DNA of 64,000 nucleotides from Anaerolineae bacterium. GTDB taxonomy: Bacteria > Chloroflexota > Anaerolineae > Aggregatilineales > UBA3940. The notes under the pieces are model-generated. The model saw nothing but the letters and a program-made list of their open reading frames with translations. It was not told the DNA's origin and did not search any database. The stretch covers positions 124,001 through 188,000 of the forward strand of contig JAFGOY010000033.1 of NCBI GenBank assembly GCA_016926255.1, read 5' to 3'. Below, one piece after another: positions 9,677 to 59,941 of the stretch. The translations under genes and the position numbers were made by a program. Numbering within the stretch: position 1 is the stretch's first letter; every line of letters starts with the position of its first letter.

Positions 9677-10588
9677 CTACGAATTGTAGAAGGCAAGGAT
9701 ACGTTCGGCGAAATCAGTGAGGTCGATCAGCCCGTCGGTGAAGGCATGGCGGCCTTCTCCGATCACGAACGTGGGCACCGGGTTCCGGGTGTGGCCGCGA
9801 ACGGAAAGGTCTTCAATGTTGCCGTGATCGCTGGTGATGACGATCAGGCCCGTTTTGTCGTCCCAGTTGTCAAGTAATCCCTGGATCACCCGGTCGAAAT
9901 TTCGCAGCTGCTCACCGATTTCTTTCCGGCTCCCCCGGTGGCCGTAGTAGTCGGTTGGCCAGTGATCGAAGAATGCGAAATCGTGTTCCGCCGCGAGTTC
10001 CGCCAGTCGCTTACCGGCTTCGTATGGCTCATATATCGGCGTGTCTGAATAGCCGAGGTGCGTGCGCCAGTTCTCCCCGGTGAAATCGGGTGAGAGCGCC
10101 CTGCCCGAATACAGTGCAGTCGCCCCGCGCATTTCGACGCCTGCAACTTGCAGCGCAAGCTGGTTTGAGGACAGCAGCCGTTTGCCTGAGCGAACGCTTT
10201 CGAAGAAACCGGGTGGGTAAGCGTTGAGGAATCCCGCGTTGATGCCGCGTGCCGTCAGCTTCTTGACCACGCTCTCCCGCCGGATGATCGTACCGATCTG
10301 GGCGGTCGGTTTTGGTCCGTAATGCTCCTCGATGATAAGCGGGACGTTGATCCCGGTCATGATCGCTGCCTGCCCGGTGGCGCTTTGCGGCGTTCCGGCG
10401 ACGCCCAGGCAAGCATCGGTCGGCACGAATATCGACCGTTCCCCATCGATACGCGGTAAGTCTTTGTGCCAGCGCTCGCCGCCAGTCAATGAAGTGAGCG
10501 CCGGGAAGTCTGCGCTGAGAAATGGGTTGCGGTCGGGGTCGTTTTCACCTAACCCGACGCCGTCGAGGAAGAGGAAGAAGATTCGCAC
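9677..10588 (-). CDS. alkaline-phosphatase-fold metalloenzyme
   Basis: A 303-residue cytosolic protein of the alkaline phosphatase/phosphoglycerate mutase superfamily. Metal-ligand segments are visible: FLDGVGLGENDP at the N-terminus, the nucleophile region TGQAAIMTGIN (a Ser or Thr normally binds metal here), FFDHWPTDYYGH and the closing ITSDHGNIEDLSVRGHT with Asp, His and His ligands. The family includes phosphopentomutase and phosphoglycerate mutase, but the protein is shorter and matches the uncharacterised metalloenzyme group better. GTG start. It is the last gene of the minus-strand run that includes murJ, 8 nt after the preceding gene. Confidence 0.75.
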   Translation of the reverse strand: MRIFFLFLDGVGLGENDPDRNPFLSADFPALTSLTGGERWHKDLPRIDGERSIFVPTDACLGVAGTPQSATGQAAIMTGINVPLIIEEHYGPKPTAQIGTIIRRESVVKKLTARGINAGFLNAYPPGFFESVRSGKRLLSSNQLALQVAGVEMRGATALYSGRALSPDFTGENWRTHLGYSDTPIYEPYEAGKRLAELAAEHDFAFFDHWPTDYYGHRGSRKEIGEQLRNFDRVIQGLLDNWDDKTGLIVITSDHGNIEDLSVRGHTRNPVPTFVIGEGRHAFTDGLIDLTDFAERILAFYNS

Positions 10589-10596
10589 GTGTAATT

Positions 10597-11181
10597 CTAC
10601 TTTCGAGTAAAGCGATACCAGCCTGATTGCCGCCCTCCGGCGGTATCGATACCGAGTGCCTTGTGATTCAGGCCGAACTCGGGTGTAAACAGGTCGATGA
10701 TCTGCTCTGGCGTATACCCGAACTCGTCCGGCGCGGTGGGGGAGAAGCTGTAAAGCATGAACGTTCCCCCTGGGCGCATGATCCGTTTGAGCATCGCAGC
10801 ATAGTCTCGACTCTCCTGCGCCGAAAGGCTGTGAAAACAGCCGATATCGACGGCGAGATCGAAGGAGCGATCATCGAGGCGGCAGCTTTCTTTGATCACG
10901 TCACCGCGCCGGAACGTTGTTTTCCCCTCGACCCTTTCCCGCCGGGCTTTTCGCCTCGCTTCGCGGATCGCCCGCCCCACAAGGTCGATGCCGGTTGCCT
11001 GCCAGCCGTTTCGGGCGAGATAGATCGACGTTGTCCCTGTTCCACATCCCAGGTCGATGGCCTGGCCTGCCGGGATTTGCTCACCCTCGATCAATTCGAT
11101 GATTTCGGGCGGCACGATCCCTGTATCCCAGGGCGTATCTGCCGTGAGGTAGCGAATCCAGTATAGAATCTGTTTGAGCAT
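10597..11181 (-). CDS. class I SAM-dependent methyltransferase
   Basis: A 194-residue soluble methyltransferase. Motif I is AIDLGCGTGTTSIYLA (about residues 39-54), the acidic strand-2 residue is in ATGIDLVGRAI, and motif IV/V segments are DLAVDIGCFHSL and MRPGGTFMLYSFSP. The compact size and WDTG-x-PPE start resemble TehB/thiopurine-methyltransferase-like proteins that methylate small thiols or oxyanions, but the substrate cannot be deduced. It lies between murJ (59 nt) and the metalloenzyme gene (8 nt) on the same strand. Confidence 0.82.
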   Translation of the reverse strand: MLKQILYWIRYLTADTPWDTGIVPPEIIELIEGEQIPAGQAIDLGCGTGTTSIYLARNGWQATGIDLVGRAIREARRKARRERVEGKTTFRRGDVIKESCRLDDRSFDLAVDIGCFHSLSAQESRDYAAMLKRIMRPGGTFMLYSFSPTAPDEFGYTPEQIIDLFTPEFGLNHKALGIDTAGGRQSGWYRFTRK

Positions 11182-11239: not shown

Positions 11240-12832
11240 TTAGTCTGTGCGTTTGGAAAATACCCCGGCGATCACGGTGGCTGGGATGGTTCGAATATCG
11301 TCGATCCCCAGCAGCAGCGCCGCTCCGAAATACACCGCCAGTCCGATCATCCCGCCGCCCACTACCGCGACAAACGGGTCAGGCGATACCAGCCAGAGGT
11401 ATAGAATCACGGTTATGCCCATCAGCACACTTGCCGCCAGCGCCCGCAGCGTATCCAGCCCGATCTGTCTGCCGTCAAGCAGATTCCACCGTAAATGGAT
11501 GATGATCAATCCAATCGTCGCCTCGATCCCCACCGCGATGCCGTTCGCCAGTGCCAGCCCGCCGTGTGACAGCCGCTTCGGTGACGAGAGCCAGATCGCC
11601 AGGATGACGTTGAGCGTTGTCGTGAAGAACGAAACGATCAACGGGGTCAGCGTGTCTTTCTGGGCGGCAAACGCCCTGACCACCACTTCTAGCACCGACT
11701 GGCTGATCAAAGCCACAACGTAAAACTGGAGGGCATAGAAGACCAGTTCGGTGCTTTGCGCAGTGAATTCACCCCGTTCGAACAGCAGTTGGATGATCGG
11801 CCTGCCCAGCACGAGCAGTCCGGCGGCTGCCGGGAGCGCCAGCACCAGCACCGCCCGCAGCGAACCGCTCAATGCCCTGCGCTGCGATTTGGTATCCTCG
11901 CCAGCGGCGATCTGCGCCAGTGTCGGAAAAACGGCGATCCCGATTGCTGTCCCGATCAATGTCCAGGGCATGTTCATCAACTGGTAGCCGTAGCGCAGCG
12001 CGGCGATCCGCCCCGTGCCCATGCCCGATCCGAGATTGGAATTGATCCAGTCTATGCTCGCCCGTGCCATCAACAGGTCGATTGCACGTGGAAGCATCAA
12101 TATGCCTACTTTTTGCAGTGCCGGGTTTTTCCATCCCAGGCCTGGCGACCATCTGACTCTGTAGATCAACAGCCCCGGAACCTGAACCAGCAGATGCATC
12201 AGCGCGCCAATCACCGCGCCCCAGGCCAGCCCGTGAACCCCCATCGCAGGGGACAACACCACCGCTCCAAAGATGATCCCGCCGGTGTACAGCACCGGGG
12301 CGATCGCCGGAAGTAGAAAGTGCTGGTGAGTCTGAAGCGTACCGGTGATCAAACTGCTTACCGAAAAGATCAGCGTTGAGATCAGCAGGATGCGCATCAA
12401 TTGCACGGTCAACCGCTGCGTTTCCGGATCGAAGTTCGGGCCGATCCCCCACCACGAACGGACAAACAGCGGAGCCAGCAGCACCACGACCAGCGAAGCC
12501 GCCGCCGTCAGCAGGAAGACGTTGTTGACCACCTGACTGAATAAACGGTTCGCGTCGGCGTTTTCCGCCTGCTTGATCTTCTCTGAGTAGATCGGGATGA
12601 AGGCGAAGGCCAGCGCCCCGCCGGAGAGCATCATCACCAGCAGTTCGGGGATTCCGTTGGCCGCGCCGTATGCATCGAGCGCCGCACTGGTTCCAAACCG
12701 GCTGGCGATGATTGGCTGGCGGATCAACCCCGCGACGAGCGCCACCGCCATCCCGCCCATAACGATCAGCGTCGAGCGGGTAACGCTGGCGGTGCGTTGA
12801 CTGTTTACCGGGGCCTGCTGTTGATTTTCCAT
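11240..12832 (-). CDS. murJ: lipid II flippase MurJ
   Basis: A 530-residue MOP-superfamily protein with about 14 membrane helices, normal for MurJ (MviN). It flips lipid-linked peptidoglycan precursor across the inner membrane. Recognisable segments include SVTRSTLIVMGG and GLIRQPIIASRFGTSAALDAYGAA at the N-terminus, the LMMLSGGALAFAFIPIYSE stretch, and RYGYQLMNMPWTLIGTAIGIAVFPTLA in the middle. The start ATG follows AAAGGTAG. It is 27 nt downstream of the first C39-like gene and probably co-transcribed with both, linking those proteins to envelope work by context. Confidence 0.9.
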   Translation of the reverse strand: MENQQQAPVNSQRTASVTRSTLIVMGGMAVALVAGLIRQPIIASRFGTSAALDAYGAANGIPELLVMMLSGGALAFAFIPIYSEKIKQAENADANRLFSQVVNNVFLLTAAASLVVVLLAPLFVRSWWGIGPNFDPETQRLTVQLMRILLISTLIFSVSSLITGTLQTHQHFLLPAIAPVLYTGGIIFGAVVLSPAMGVHGLAWGAVIGALMHLLVQVPGLLIYRVRWSPGLGWKNPALQKVGILMLPRAIDLLMARASIDWINSNLGSGMGTGRIAALRYGYQLMNMPWTLIGTAIGIAVFPTLAQIAAGEDTKSQRRALSGSLRAVLVLALPAAAGLLVLGRPIIQLLFERGEFTAQSTELVFYALQFYVVALISQSVLEVVVRAFAAQKDTLTPLIVSFFTTTLNVILAIWLSSPKRLSHGGLALANGIAVGIEATIGLIIIHLRWNLLDGRQIGLDTLRALAASVLMGITVILYLWLVSPDPFVAVVGGGMIGLAVYFGAALLLGIDDIRTIPATVIAGVFSKRTD

Positions 12833-12859: not shown

Positions 12860-14233
12860 TCATTGTTCGGCCAGCGCGATTTCCGCCAGTTCAAAATGCG
12901 GGTTCAGCGTGGATGCTTTCTCGTAGCATTCGATAGCCTCGTCGTGATAGCCCATTGCTTCGAGTGCCCGGCCTTTGTAGTAGTAGGCTTCTTCCGAGTA
13001 CTCGTTATTGGCGAGTACGGTATCGGCCAGCGTGATCACATCGTTTAGCCGATCACCGCCCACGTTGAGATAGGCTTCGTAGGGGCCAAACTGGTACCAC
13101 AGCATCCGCCAGGGTGTCCCTTTGCTGCGGGCGATGTCGAATGCCGATGCAGCGTTGGCCGAATCGCCCAGTGCGACGAGCGAACTGCCGATGTTGAACC
13201 ATGCGTAAGGATTGTCCGGGTCGGCCTGCGCTTCTATCTGGGCTGTTGCGAGCGCCCCGGTATACATCGTTTGCGTGTCGATGTCCTGCCCGATGATCGC
13301 CGCGACTTCGGCATACTGATCGGGTGGGTAGACGACGAGGTACGTCCGGTTGAAATGCTGCCACATCCGGTTGATGTAGTCGTAAGGTTCCTGCTGGCCC
13401 GGCCCCAGGTAGGAGTCCATCGTCCAGAAAGTGCGGTCGGTTTTCGAGTAACCGTAGATCAGCAGGTAATGGCCCATCCAGCCCAACCGGTCGGGTTCGG
13501 GGTCGAATCCCTTCTCGATCATCACCGGGTAGCCAGCGTCGATCAGTCGCTGGATCAGATCGAGATCGCCATCGACTCGCACGATCATGTTATAGCCGAG
13601 TGATTCGACGTAAGCTTGCAGTTCGTCGGGCCTGACGTTGCGATCCTCGATATTCGGCTTGACGAACTGCTGGATGTCCTCCTGAGTCACGCCCAGTTCC
13701 CAGTAGCTGAGATACGTGGCAAGCGTCGCCGGGCCGCAGTTGTTCCACATCTGGTAATTGTGATCGAACGGTTGCAGCATGACACTGTCAGGTTCGTTCA
13801 GCGCTGCCTCTGTATCCTCCTCAGAGGGGATAGGGGGCAGTTCCTCGGCTTCAAATGCAGGCGTAAGGATTTCGTCTGATGGGCTGATCGAAGGCACATC
13901 GACGCTGATTGTCGGGAGCGGGGTTGTTTGCGGCTGCTCAATGGCAGATAGCTGTTCGAGTAGTGCTGCTTCGGCGCTGGCATCAGCCGGAACTGCGGTC
14001 GGCAGCGTTTCGAATGGATCGGTATCAAACACCATTTCGTAGAGTGGTTCAGGCAGATAGGCGGCAGCATATCGGTCGGGGATGAATGTCCGTATAGCAA
14101 AGCGCAGCCAGAGCGGAGCCGATATCGCCAGTGTCAGAAAGAGCAGCGACCCGCCAATGATCAGCCAGGGCCCCAGTTTCCTCCGGTTGATCGGCCTTTT
14201 GCGGTAGGTCTTGTCATCCTTAAGAAACGACAC
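12860..14233 (-). CDS. membrane-anchored C39-like peptidase with TPR domain (paralogue 1)
   Basis: Order in 457 residues: a basic N-terminus, one membrane helix (about 22-44), a FIPDRYAAAYLPEPL motif, a Pro/Glu/Ser-rich linker to about 150, a papain-like C39 domain with Cys166 in NNCGPAT, His255 in GHYLLI and Asp273 in TMDSY, and C-terminal TPR-type repeats (about 330-457, ending in YHDEAIECYEKAS). All three catalytic residues are present. Family members such as ABC-transporter leaders cut at double-Gly sites, but no transporter is fused or adjacent, so the target is unknown. The start is GTG. It shares architecture with the gene at 14240. Confidence 0.75.
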   Translation of the reverse strand: MSFLKDDKTYRKRPINRRKLGPWLIIGGSLLFLTLAISAPLWLRFAIRTFIPDRYAAAYLPEPLYEMVFDTDPFETLPTAVPADASAEAALLEQLSAIEQPQTTPLPTISVDVPSISPSDEILTPAFEAEELPPIPSEEDTEAALNEPDSVMLQPFDHNYQMWNNCGPATLATYLSYWELGVTQEDIQQFVKPNIEDRNVRPDELQAYVESLGYNMIVRVDGDLDLIQRLIDAGYPVMIEKGFDPEPDRLGWMGHYLLIYGYSKTDRTFWTMDSYLGPGQQEPYDYINRMWQHFNRTYLVVYPPDQYAEVAAIIGQDIDTQTMYTGALATAQIEAQADPDNPYAWFNIGSSLVALGDSANAASAFDIARSKGTPWRMLWYQFGPYEAYLNVGGDRLNDVITLADTVLANNEYSEEAYYYKGRALEAMGYHDEAIECYEKASTLNPHFELAEIALAEQ

Positions 14234-14239
14234 TGGACG

Positions 14240-15727
14240 TTATTCCTGTTGGGCGTTGAGGGCTAGGTAGGCTTCTCTGGCCGGTTTGAAGTTCTCGTTG
14301 TAATACAATGCCAGATCGAGCGACTTCAACGCGTCTTCGATTTTACCCTGTTCTCGCTGAGCCAGTCCCAGGTAATAATACGGTTCCTCGGAGCCGATCT
14401 TGGCGATCACCGCGTTTGCCATGTCGACGACGGCGTCGTAGCGGCCAACATGCATGTAGGCTTCGAAGGGGGCGAACTGGTACCAGGTAAAGCGCCAGGG
14501 GAGTCCCAGCCGCCGCGCCTCGTCGAAGGCGACTGCTGCGTCCTCGTAGCGCTCAAGCCCGACCAGGTTCGTCCCCAGGTTGAACCAGGCGAACGCATCA
14601 TTCCGGTTGATGTTGATCTCTGCCTGGGCCGTCTCGATGGCGTTGAGATACATAGTCTCGTCGTCCATGTTCTCGCCGATGATCGAGGCGACCGCGATGG
14701 CCTGATCGGGCCGGTAGGCGATCAGATAGCGCCGGTTGAACTGCCGCCAGTAATGGTCGAGGGCTTCGTAGCTGTAGAACCAGTTCGGGCGGCGGTAGGT
14801 ATCCATCGCAATGAACCCCTGGTCCCTATCAGAATAACCGACCAGCGTCAGGTAGTGGGAAGTCCAGCCGATTGTTTCCGGTTCGGGGTCGTAGCCCGTC
14901 TCGATCAGCACCGGGTATCCGGCCAGAAGGAACCGCTTGATTGTATCGAAGCTCCCGCCCTCGCGGATGATCATGTGATAGCCGAGGCTTTCGGCCAGGG
15001 CGGCCATCTCGTCAGGTCTGACGTTGGGGTCTTTGGGGTTTGGTTTCAGGGTGGCGGCGGCCTCTTCCATTGTCATTTCTGTGCCCCAATAGCTGATCAT
15101 CGTTGCAAACGAGGCCGGACCGCAGTTGTTGCTTCCTGTCTGCTGATGGAACGTGAACCCGGTCAGCAGTGTATCGGCGTGGCTGAGATCAGCTTGATGT
15201 TCCAGGTCAACTGCACTCGTACTGATCGCCATCGCCGCAGCCGGTGTGACTGTCGGTGTCGGGATACCCGGCACCGGCGTGGGCTGGATGTAACCCTCAG
15301 CCGGAGCAGCGACAGCCGTAGCACTCTCTTCTTCCGGTGAGAGAGTCGGGGTGGGGGTCGGCGCAACAGAGGTCAGCAGGCTTTGAGCTAGTGCCTCGTC
15401 GTACGCTTCGGGCGTGGGCACCTGCTCGTCGAGATTGATGCGAAAGATGGTTTTTTGTAGTCTGGGTGGGGCATAGGCCATGATATACCGGTCAGGAACG
15501 AACCACCGGATCGCTGGTAGCCAGGCCGGGGCCGAGATCAGGATCGCCGCAGCAGCCGACAGCGCAACAATGATCTGCCACGATTGGATGCCGCGATTCA
15601 CTTTCGATCGGGAAATCTGGCTCGACAGGCTTGGGTATCGATTCCCGCGCTGTGTACGAGCCTTCTTTCTTTGGACTGACCGTGTATTTCGAAGTCGAGG
15701 AAGCTGCCTGCGACTTTTGAAAACCAT
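14240..15727 (-). CDS. membrane-anchored C39-like peptidase with TPR domain (paralogue 2)
   Basis: Same architecture as the next gene downstream: a very basic N-terminus (about 50 residues rich in Arg/Lys), one membrane helix, FVPDRYIMAYAPPRL directly after it, a Thr/Pro linker, a C39-like domain with Cys in NNCGPAS, His in TSHYLTL and Asp in AMDTYRR, then TPR repeats. The catalytic Cys, His and Asp are about residues 202, 291 and 309. I place the start at the ATG at 15727, because a TTG eight codons further up is the only earlier option. Only 6 nt separate it from paralogue 1. Function unknown; a paired envelope protease is the simplest reading. Confidence 0.75.
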   Translation of the reverse strand: MVFKSRRQLPRLRNTRSVQRKKARTQRGNRYPSLSSQISRSKVNRGIQSWQIIVALSAAAAILISAPAWLPAIRWFVPDRYIMAYAPPRLQKTIFRINLDEQVPTPEAYDEALAQSLLTSVAPTPTPTLSPEEESATAVAAPAEGYIQPTPVPGIPTPTVTPAAAMAISTSAVDLEHQADLSHADTLLTGFTFHQQTGSNNCGPASFATMISYWGTEMTMEEAAATLKPNPKDPNVRPDEMAALAESLGYHMIIREGGSFDTIKRFLLAGYPVLIETGYDPEPETIGWTSHYLTLVGYSDRDQGFIAMDTYRRPNWFYSYEALDHYWRQFNRRYLIAYRPDQAIAVASIIGENMDDETMYLNAIETAQAEININRNDAFAWFNLGTNLVGLERYEDAAVAFDEARRLGLPWRFTWYQFAPFEAYMHVGRYDAVVDMANAVIAKIGSEEPYYYLGLAQREQGKIEDALKSLDLALYYNENFKPAREAYLALNAQQE

Positions 15728-15909
15728 TTTATTCAGATTCCCTGCCACCAATTACACCGCCGGAATAATACTATGCCATCAACCCACCGGCAGGGCTTCT
15801 CTTTCGCAATTTGTGAGTATAACGTGCTGAGTGCTGCGCTTACAAACTCAAACGTGCCCGTCGACAATTCAGTTTAGCGCGCCGATTTGTGCATTGATCC
15901 GTGTTAAGC

Positions 15910-25327: not shown

Positions 25328-26311
25328 ATGGGCGCGTTCCTGATTGCCGTTGCCGCTGGTATCATCCCGATGTTGGTTTACCCGGTGGCGCTCTATTTCC
25401 TGGATCGCTACGAAAAAGAACCACTGCCCCTGCTCCTGGCTGTTTTTCTCTGGGGATTTGTTCCCGCCGCAGTGCTCTCACTCATCTCGCAGTTGATCAT
25501 TGGGATTCCGCTGCTCATGCTCGACGAAACGGGCCTGCTGGCCGATCAGGTGCTGGCGGTAGCCGTCGCGCCGGTATCCGAAGAATGCTTCAAGGCGATT
25601 GCCGTCCTCGCGGTTTACCTGATCTGGCGGCGTGAGTTCGACGGTGTTCTGGATGGAGTCGTATACGGCGGGCTGGTCGGGTTCGGGTTTGCGGCAATAG
25701 AGAATGTGCTCTACTTCCTTGAAGTCGATGCCGCCGTCATCGTGATGAGGACGATTGTGTTTGGTTTGAATCATGCCTTTTATACCAGCCTGACCGGGAT
25801 CGGCTTCGGGATTGCTCGCCATTCACGGAAAGGATTTGTCCGGTTCTTTGCGCCGGTAGCCGGGTTGATCATGGCGATTGCGGCGCATGCCGTACACAAC
25901 ACTACGGTGACCTTTGCCGAGACTGCGCCCGCTCTTTGCTGTTTTGGCCTTCTCGCCGATTACGGCGGGATCGCGTTTGTCCTTGGGGTGGTTGTTTTGA
26001 CTGCCAGGCAGGAGCGTCAGTGGATCACCGAGCAGCTTCAGGGCGAAATCGAATCCGGCACATTGACTCAGCCGCAGTACGATATCGTCGTGTCACCGGC
26101 CCGCCGGTTTGCTATCCGAATGAACACCCTGTTTTCCGGCGGGGTCAAATCCTGGTGGGGATTGGGACAGTACTTTCAGGTGTTGACCAAACTGGCCTAC
26201 AAGAAATATGCCCGCCAGCGTCGTGGAGACAAAGGTGCAGCCCAGGCAGAGATCGATGATCTGCGGGCAAAGTCCGCCGCGCTGTCTGAATCATTCCCCG
26301 ATCTTGCATAA
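25328..26311 (+). CDS. PrsW-family intramembrane protease
   Basis: A polytopic 327-residue protein with about eight helices. The family signature is clear: YEKEP near residue 30, Glu85-Glu86 in SEECFKA, the second active-site Glu in AAIEN (about residue 125), and conserved His in LNHAFYT and AHAVHN. PrsW of Bacillus subtilis performs site-1 cleavage of an anti-sigma factor; the substrate here is not evident, because no anti-sigma gene adjoins. The C-terminal 80 residues are soluble and basic. The PHP gene precedes it by 8 nt and the DM13 gene converges 17 nt away. Confidence 0.85.
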   Translation: MGAFLIAVAAGIIPMLVYPVALYFLDRYEKEPLPLLLAVFLWGFVPAAVLSLISQLIIGIPLLMLDETGLLADQVLAVAVAPVSEECFKAIAVLAVYLIWRREFDGVLDGVVYGGLVGFGFAAIENVLYFLEVDAAVIVMRTIVFGLNHAFYTSLTGIGFGIARHSRKGFVRFFAPVAGLIMAIAAHAVHNTTVTFAETAPALCCFGLLADYGGIAFVLGVVVLTARQERQWITEQLQGEIESGTLTQPQYDIVVSPARRFAIRMNTLFSGGVKSWWGLGQYFQVLTKLAYKKYARQRRGDKGAAQAEIDDLRAKSAALSESFPDLA

Positions 26312-58137: not shown

Positions 58138-58225
58138 TTTTTAGGACTACGGTAATCTACTTTAAAATCATGGTTTGCGTATACTACTAAAACCGACCGC
58201 TGATATGATCCCACAGGGAGGAAAT

Positions 58226-59941
58226 ATGCGTATGAAGCGCGTAATACTCGGATTTGTGACCCTTGTCGTTCTTCTGACTGTATTTGCTGTTCCAACCCAA
58301 CCGGCTTTGGCCCAGTCCGGCCATCAGGTGTGGACGTTCTACATGGGCTACTGGACCGGTAACATCTCCTGGGATGCTCAGGCGAGCGTGCTCGGCGACT
58401 GGCCTTCGATGGGCAAGTATGACTCGCGTGACCCCGGCGTGGCTGCGGCCCATATCGAACAGGCGCAAAGTGCCGGGATCGATGCGTTTCTGGTGAGCTG
58501 GTACGGTACCGGTGAAACACTCACCACCACCCCGACTCTTAACAACATGCTCGACCGCGCCGCCGAACGCGGCTTTCACGTGGCAGCAGTGCTTGACTGT
58601 TTCAACCCCAATTTCCTGCGTGATCGCGGCCAGATTGTTTCTTCACTGAATTACCTGATCCATGATCGGGCTAACCATCCCGGCTATCTGCGCTACAACG
58701 GGAAGCCGGTGATCGTCTTTGCCTTCCAGGATACGCTCGGCTTTTCGACCGCCGATTGGCTGGCGATCCGCAATGAAGTCGATCCGGGTCGGAACACCAT
58801 CTGGCTTGCCGAAGGACTCAACGGGTGCTGTATGTACGGCGGCGCGATGGACGGCATGTATGCTTTCAACATCGCCTGGGCCGGTGGCAGCGCCGCCCGC
58901 TATTCGCTTGAGCAGAATTCGGTCTACGCGCAGGGCGGGTCGCTCTACGTGCCGACTGTCCACCCTGGTTGGGATGAAGACCGGATCGCTGCGCGTGATG
59001 GCCGTGCGAATCCAACCGCGCGCAAGGATCGCGCCGGTGGGCAGTTCCTGATCAACAGTTGGAACGGTGCGACCTCGGTCAACCCGGATGTGATCCTCAT
59101 TGTTAGTTGGAACGAGTTCATGGAAGGATCGTATATCGAGCCAAGTCAGGTTTATGGCACGCAGAGCCTCGATGTGCTGCGTTCGCTGATCGCCACCTGG
59201 AAAGCCGGTGCGCCTGCAAGTGCTCCTCCTGTAGTGGTCAGCCCGCCCGCCACAGGCACAGCCGGGATTGTAGCCGAAGCCACATCTTACAACCTGAACG
59301 TCCGATCAGGACCGGGCACCGAATACACTGCCGTCGGCCAGATCAGCCCCGGCACGCAGTATGCGGTAACCGGCGGCCAGGGAGATTGGCTGTCGATTAA
59401 TTACAATGGGCAGACGGGTTGGGTGGCCGGGTGGCTGGTACGACAATCTTCCGGTGCCCTGTCTTCGTCGGTGCCTTCTGCTGTCCCGGCTGCAGCCGCC
59501 GCTGGCGAGTTCGCCGAAGCCATCTCCTACAGTCTCAACGTTCGCTCTGGCCCCGGCACCGAGCACCAACCGGTCGGGCAGATCAGCCCGGGGACGAAAT
59601 ACGCCGTGCTTGGTCGTTCCGGTGACTGGGTATCCATCGACTACAATGGGCAGACGGGTTGGGTCGCTGGGTGGCTGGTGACGATCACTGGTGTGCCGGT
59701 TTCCGCTGCCCCGCAGCCGGTCATCGACTTCCGCGCCTCGCCGACTACCGTCAAGCGTGGGCAGTGTGCGACCGTTGCCTGGGATGTCGAGAACATCGAT
59801 AGGGTGTACTTCAACGGCGAGGGAGTGGTTGGTCATTCCTCGCGTGAAGTCTGCCCGTCGTCGACTTCGGCCTATTCTCTCGATGTCGTCCTGCGTGATG
59901 GCTCGACTACCCGTCGCGAGGTGACCATCACCGTTCAGTAA
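58226..59941 (+). CDS. secreted GH99-like glycosidase with two SH3b domains
   Basis: 571 residues from the ATG at 58226, preceded by GGGAGG; an earlier frame start at 58175 lacks a ribosome site. A signal peptide (about 1-28, ending PALA) is followed by a GH99/GH71-like TIM barrel (about 32-335) typical of enzymes that cleave alpha-mannan or related glycans, with FYMGYWTG, FLVSWYGTG and SWNEFMEGSYIEPS. Two SH3b domains (about 365-420 and 450-505) share a YNGQTGWVAGWLV core. A short C-terminal beta domain follows. SH3b domains would tether it to the wall. Confidence 0.75.
   Translation: MRMKRVILGFVTLVVLLTVFAVPTQPALAQSGHQVWTFYMGYWTGNISWDAQASVLGDWPSMGKYDSRDPGVAAAHIEQAQSAGIDAFLVSWYGTGETLTTTPTLNNMLDRAAERGFHVAAVLDCFNPNFLRDRGQIVSSLNYLIHDRANHPGYLRYNGKPVIVFAFQDTLGFSTADWLAIRNEVDPGRNTIWLAEGLNGCCMYGGAMDGMYAFNIAWAGGSAARYSLEQNSVYAQGGSLYVPTVHPGWDEDRIAARDGRANPTARKDRAGGQFLINSWNGATSVNPDVILIVSWNEFMEGSYIEPSQVYGTQSLDVLRSLIATWKAGAPASAPPVVVSPPATGTAGIVAEATSYNLNVRSGPGTEYTAVGQISPGTQYAVTGGQGDWLSINYNGQTGWVAGWLVRQSSGALSSSVPSAVPAAAAAGEFAEAISYSLNVRSGPGTEHQPVGQISPGTKYAVLGRSGDWVSIDYNGQTGWVAGWLVTITGVPVSAAPQPVIDFRASPTTVKRGQCATVAWDVENIDRVYFNGEGVVGHSSREVCPSSTSAYSLDVVLRDGSTTRREVTITVQ

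Follow-up and report, generated by a model that had tools for sequence, protein, structure and literature searches.

A Membrane-Anchored C39-Like/TPR Protein Paired with a MurJ Paralogue in Anaerolineae Suggests an Undescribed Cell-Wall Enzyme Module

Gene Organization of the Locus

The 64,000-nucleotide stretch of DNA analyzed here (the window) is part of a 4.6 Mb Anaerolineae genome in 82 contigs. Five genes on its minus strand lie in the order C39T (503 aa), C39T (457 aa), MurJ (530 aa), methyltransferase, and metalloenzyme-family gene. We use C39T as the name for an anchored C39-TPR protein consisting of a membrane helix, a PxRY motif, a linker, a C39-like domain, and TPRs. The genes are as follows (linked loci are those in which C39T adjoins murJ).

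9677..10588, minus strand: metalloenzyme-superfamily protein (Pfam); cluster present in 12 of 30 linked loci
10597..11181, minus strand: methyltransferase adjoining murJ (Pfam); cluster present in 5 of 30 linked loci
11240..12832, minus strand: MurJ/MviN-family flippase of the C39-linked paralogue clade (PF03023, 268.9 bits against a cut-off of 27.4; tree)
12860..14233, minus strand: C39T gene adjoining murJ, 457 aa, GTG start; membrane helix, PDRY, linker, C39-like domain, and TPR
14240..15751, minus strand: second C39T gene, upstream of the first in tandem, 503 aa from TTG

The two C39T genes were separated by 6 bases and the nearer one lay 27 bases from murJ, in agreement with a preliminary description that had placed the pair directly upstream of murJ on one strand. 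An in-frame ATG at 15727, where that description had ended the gene, is an alternative start of the 503 aa protein. The window pair was 42% identical over the alignment and made up the sole C39T-family matches in its own genome. The term "cell-wall operon," also used earlier, is right in that MurJ is present; however, the other immediate neighbors were a methyltransferase, a metalloenzyme, and AMMECR1 (Pfam), so that murJ was the sole cell-wall gene among them and the term hangs on MurJ alone in this genome. That description had also seen no transporter; in agreement, a Pfam scan of 30 window proteins detected no ABC transporter and none was fused to C39T, and a C39 bacteriocin-processing exporter at this locus was therefore rejected. 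A promoter and terminator scan yielded no more than roughly the level of shuffled sequence. Elsewhere in the window, a PrsW-family intramembrane metalloprotease (25328-26311, plus strand) and a protein that resembles glycosyl hydrolase family 99/71 and carries bacterial SH3 domains (58175-59941, plus strand, beside tRNA-Arg) were observed.

Domain Architecture and Catalytic Residues of C39T

Both window proteins matched Peptidase_C39_2 (PF13529), with 44.7 bits for the 457 aa protein and 54.4 bits for the 503 aa protein at a Pfam cut-off of 24, and all 95 C39T relatives matched it at E 0.001. TPR models also matched both, the scores in the 503 aa protein being slightly below the Pfam cut-offs. 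An AlphaFold model of the 457 aa protein, computed from 95 aligned window and locus proteins, had a mean pLDDT of 90.7 and a pTM of 0.85 and contained two short helices at residues 53-68 and a low-confidence linker at about 100-145. The following features were assigned.

14084..14185, minus strand: membrane helix, residues 17-50 of the 457 aa protein (model; hydropathy peak)
14069..14080, minus strand: PDRY juxtamembrane motif, residues 52-55 of the 457 aa protein (alignment)
13328..13786, minus strand: C39-like papain fold, residues 150-302 of the 457 aa protein (Pfam, model, fold matches)
13751-13753, 13736-13738, 13469-13471, and 13415-13417, minus strand: active site residues Q161, C166, H255, and D273, respectively, of the 457 aa protein (alignment)
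12866..13324, minus strand: TPR-like helical domain, residues 304-456 of the 457 aa protein (Pfam, model)
15518..15574, minus strand: 19-residue stretch of highest hydrophobicity (60-78) in the 503 aa protein, taken as the membrane helix
15485..15496, minus strand: PDRY motif, residues 86-89 of the 503 aa protein (alignment)
14795..15151, minus strand: C39-like domain, residues 201-319 of the 503 aa protein (Pfam); Q204, C210, H299, and D317 by alignment

The earlier view that the adjacent genes encode the same architecture was borne out by Pfam, the model, and hydropathy, as each protein has one helix, PDRY, a disordered linker, a C39-like domain, and TPRs; the catalytic Cys-His-Asp is complete, as reported there, and is joined by a Gln. 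PDRY is the f1-lineage version of a looser PxRY. Of the 102 rows that have residues at the site, 62 contained PxRY, and exact PDRY occurred in 10 of 136 C39T rows. The Gln-Cys-His-Asp set was complete in all 136 C39T homologues by alignment, and Q161, N164, C166, D197, N199, H255, D273, W291, G349, and Y380 were invariant in the 136 homologous ORFs. Retention of the four catalytic residues throughout is what a working enzyme would be expected to show. A membrane helix was detected in 134 of the 136 homologues; among these rows, 96 had a more positive charge on the N-side of the helix than on the other side, 22 had the same charge on both, and 16 had a less positive N-side, a bias that fits a C-terminus outside. 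The Pfam scan found no peptidoglycan-binding domain.

Distribution of C39T and of Its Pairing with MurJ

Nearly all named relatives of the window's genome were Chloroflexota metagenome-assembled genomes, most of them Anaerolineae. The relatives set comprised 61 genomes. C39T matches were present in 59 of them, and in at least 37 of the 61 a C39T gene preceded a MurJ gene in the same orientation by <1 kb (at least 36 from crossing the C39T and MurJ match lists, plus G059 from its DNA). By our own estimate from the counts, chance linkage would be expected in well under one genome. Nine more MurJ proteins of the linked clade (clade C, see below) were taken from genomes for which no link had been listed. 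Of these, one was linked, one stood at a contig end, and seven had no C39T upstream within the DNA stretch examined. In a sample of the phylum, 36 of 201 genomes contained a C39T match at 1e-30, namely the genome of the window, 19 of the 24 genomes listed from its class, and a further 16. No MurJ was found within about 1.5 kb of C39T at any of the 29 phylum-sample loci covered (L153 and L155-L182), and MurJ was directly downstream of C39T in just 14 of the 80 loci of a further set (L032, L033, L034, L043, L056, L066, L096, L099, L101, L102, L104, L106, L107, and L109). The paired loci include records named Thermoflexales (L043) and Ardenticatenales (L066). Universal co-occurrence was rejected in view of the seven clade C MurJ proteins and the 29 C39T loci standing alone. 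Judged from these sequences, the pairing is an old one, common in the order (families f1-f7), that was lost or never formed in some lineages. The C39T family is broader than its MurJ link.

The preliminary description had raised conservation of a murJ-C39-C39 triple across Chloroflexota. Although the C39T-MurJ pair was conserved as described above, the triple was present in only 6 of the 30 linked loci, namely WIN (the window), L032, L112, L113, L114, and L120 (family f6), with L115 truncated at a contig end in this count. In the C39T tree, the window tandem was a duplication inside its own family (13-row group, SH-aLRT 99); the tree also contained a second tandem pair, separate from this one, in genomes of the Promineifilum/Ardenticatenaceae type, as well as short forms (about 350 aa) that occur in single copy. 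The second pair, likewise conserved (several of L036-L060 and others, e.g., L041:9971-12793) stood without MurJ, its positions 1 and 2 forming separate clades, and was often followed by a cluster F4 gene that was histidine phosphatase-like by eye. L107 is a record named Bacteroidetes yet carries an Anaerolineae-type C39T-MurJ locus and is probably a mislabeled bin.

The Linked MurJ and Its Gene Neighborhood

PF03023 matches were present in all 61 genomes of the relatives set. In a tree of 51 MurJ proteins, all 30 C39T-linked rows fell into one clade (C; support 100/98), which adjoins clade A (11 rows) and stands apart from clade B (10 rows). Because the linked rows all belong to one clade of three, the linked protein is a separate MurJ paralogue and not the sole MurJ. 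The genome of the window itself has one MurJ per clade and a fourth, unclassified PF03023 match; its members of the other two clades are located at G000:C9:143904-145256 and G000:C23:259201-260502.

A PF00905 transpeptidase cluster (two members typed) was found upstream in 8 of the 30 linked loci, and SEDS and FhaA_N/FHA (FhaA-type) clusters (one member each typed) were found in 4 each. Seven of the eight transpeptidase-flanked loci grouped within a single MurJ sub-clade, the MurJ piece of the eighth (L107) being too short for the tree, so this neighborhood may count as a single event. Although it belongs to one lineage, it sets the C39T-MurJ unit beside wall synthesis genes. The three SEDS and eight transpeptidase matches of the window's own genome were all on other contigs. 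Mycobacterial FhaA is reported to interact with the MurJ-type flippase MviN (PMC11898655), a combination of flippase and envelope regulator that the FhaA-type cluster near C39T-MurJ resembles. The two cases differ in that FhaA is proposed there to act on the pseudokinase domain of MviN, whereas the Pfam scan reported no pseudokinase domain in the window MurJ. At L113:1266-1814, downstream of a linked MurJ, we observed a thioredoxin-domain gene (cluster in 4 of 30 linked loci) whose product has an N-terminus that is hydrophobic by eye; a protein of this type might keep an exported cysteine enzyme reduced.

Fold Matches and Possible Functions of C39T

The C39 domain was compared with known structures using Foldseek and then VIA-align. 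The top PDB match was the PeiR pseudomurein endoisopeptidase (8z4h; Z 14.4, rmsd 2.1, 144 residues, 19% identity), followed by 3erv (Z 13.7), ComA (Z 13.5), PCAT1 (Z 13.3), and phytochelatin synthase (Z 12.5). The Z of PeiR against 13.7 and 13.5 for other papain-like families is a tie; since the scores are tied or nearly so, they identify the fold rather than the substrate and do not separate wall from leader peptidases. We know of no TPR or MurJ partner of PeiR. Although similar in fold, PeiR is an archaeal virus lysin in which, according to PMC6189367, a C39 peptidase domain is accompanied by pseudomurein-binding repeats; the bond cut by related Pei enzymes has been reported (PMC4592898). 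Two further papers list Peptidase_C39_2 among the catalytic domains in lysins of phages of Gram-positives (PMC8223927) and liken a mycobacteriophage endolysin domain to a B. anthracis C39-like peptidase (PMC3314691), the description also given for structure 3erv. The top BFVD match of C39T bears the name endolysin, and two PHROGs endolysin families were matched by just 2 and 1 of 95 C39T members. PDB sequence searches with C39T returned TPR proteins, and the C39-like chain was no better than E 0.86.

We favor the reading that C39T would be an exported, membrane-tethered cysteine peptidase, or an amidase of the same fold, acting on cell-wall peptides where a specialized MurJ paralogue delivers lipid-linked precursor; this is a tentative choice that falls a little short of probable. 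It is preferred because the catalytic set is intact, the linked MurJ forms a separate clade, and the pairing recurs in so many of the relatives; because transpeptidase, SEDS, and FhaA-type clusters lie near some loci and wall synthesis genes occur in the same genome; and because PeiR is the top fold match, C39-like lysins and endolysins provide precedents, the BFVD match is an endolysin, and the helix shows the charge bias. Against it stand leader peptidases about 1 Z below PeiR, the unlinked MurJ and C39T proteins, the restriction of the transpeptidase neighborhood to one lineage, and the missing peptidoglycan-binding domain.

The main rival is that C39T is a processing protease that acts on the leader or pro-domain of exported proteins or peptides, its TPRs binding clients and its adjacency to MurJ reflecting shared envelope regulation. 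We consider this unlikely, though less so than the other alternatives. C39 leader peptidases score nearly as high as PeiR, most C39T homologues are not beside MurJ, and PMC10318531 calls C39_2 a transporter-associated relative of C39 leader peptidases, which fits this explanation. The PA2778-family model (NF033920), matched by 80 of 95 C39T relatives at E 0.001, spans the C39 domain plus the TPR start of the window proteins (residues 161-373 of the 457 aa and 197-412 of the 503 aa protein); however, their scores of 41.3 and 36.1 bits are far below the curated cut-off of 150. Of 134 rows, 40 contained GG in the linker versus 17.3 expected by shuffling, and PTPxGGxxPT, a possible C39-type cleavage site, occurred between membrane and C39 domain in 8 of 136 rows, each of them from a MurJ-linked locus (L096, L102, L122, L116, L128, L101, L106, and L129). 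In contrast, no GG was present between the membrane helix and the catalytic Cys of the window pair, and autocleavage, for which a test had been proposed earlier, is not supported at a double glycine in these two proteins. The C39 domains of the ABC exporters ComA and PCAT1 share the fold, whereas C39T is membrane-anchored with TPRs and has no exporter among the 30 scanned window proteins. A processing role would also not explain why C39T is stably paired with a single clade of MurJ.

A module for another lipid-linked polymer, in which the MurJ paralogue has switched substrate and C39T modifies the product, is distinctly unlikely. The linked MurJ does form its own clade beside two others, and the residue aligned to E. 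coli R24, which we take to be a position that matters there, was kept in 11 of 11 and 10 of 10 rows of the other clades versus 8 of 30 linked rows. However, the window MurJ retains the R24-aligned Arg and the residue aligned to D39, and the neighborhood in one lineage is that of peptidoglycan synthesis. All three clades have lost the R52 position, and R270 is missing throughout A and B, making them poor markers here. Active positions were dropped as proof of an altered substrate, since they vary in every clade and the window MurJ keeps R24.

It is quite improbable that C39T is a sortase-like transpeptidase attaching proteins or peptides to the wall precursor. Phytochelatin synthase, a transpeptidase, shares the fold and the gene adjoins a precursor flippase, but hydrolases make up most of the other fold matches. 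An old yet functionally idle adjacency, with C39T acting alone in the envelope, would agree with the broken links in 7 genomes and the unlinked C39T homologues and is very improbable given linkage across families f1-f7 with divergent sequences.

The preferred wall peptidase goes beyond what the sequence, predicted fold, catalytic set, gene pairing, and MurJ clade show, in that export, a wall substrate, a partner, and coupling to MurJ are inferred; it would work as follows. The N-terminal helix would hold C39T in the membrane, and the Pro/Thr-rich linker would give the C39-like domain access to nascent or cross-linked wall. The TPR arm may bind a partner or the wall-synthesis complex, which would keep hydrolysis beside wall insertion. 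NlpI is a TPR protein, and MepS is papain-like and belongs to another peptidase family than C39T. The placement of C39T beside MurJ may be comparable in logic to NlpI-MepS, in which, as PMC11211486 describes, an adaptor holds a wall endopeptidase close to wall synthesis; there the two are separate proteins, whereas C39T is one polypeptide. A stronger version, in which the duplicated MurJ paralogue and C39T form one flippase-coupled unit and the enzyme edits or cleaves the precursor peptide as or just after it emerges, seems distinctly unlikely. If true, it would provide these bacteria with a second path of wall assembly under its own control.

The new envelope control system envisaged in the preliminary description gains from the conserved pairing, the intact site, the anchor, and the lack of a C39-type exporter among the scanned window proteins, and the part of the literature covered by our search contained no description of a C39-TPR/MurJ pair. 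It is partly supported, with the corrections that the conserved unit is the C39T-MurJ pair, that this MurJ represents one of three paralogue clades, and that C39T is broader than its MurJ link. Taken as genomic evidence, the pairing suggests an undescribed cell-wall enzyme module. To our knowledge, MurJ control is known in few bacteria, and little work has been done on the cell wall of Chloroflexota. The gene pair, the MurJ clade, and the intact enzyme offer a concrete candidate for a system in which precursor delivery is coupled to wall cleavage.
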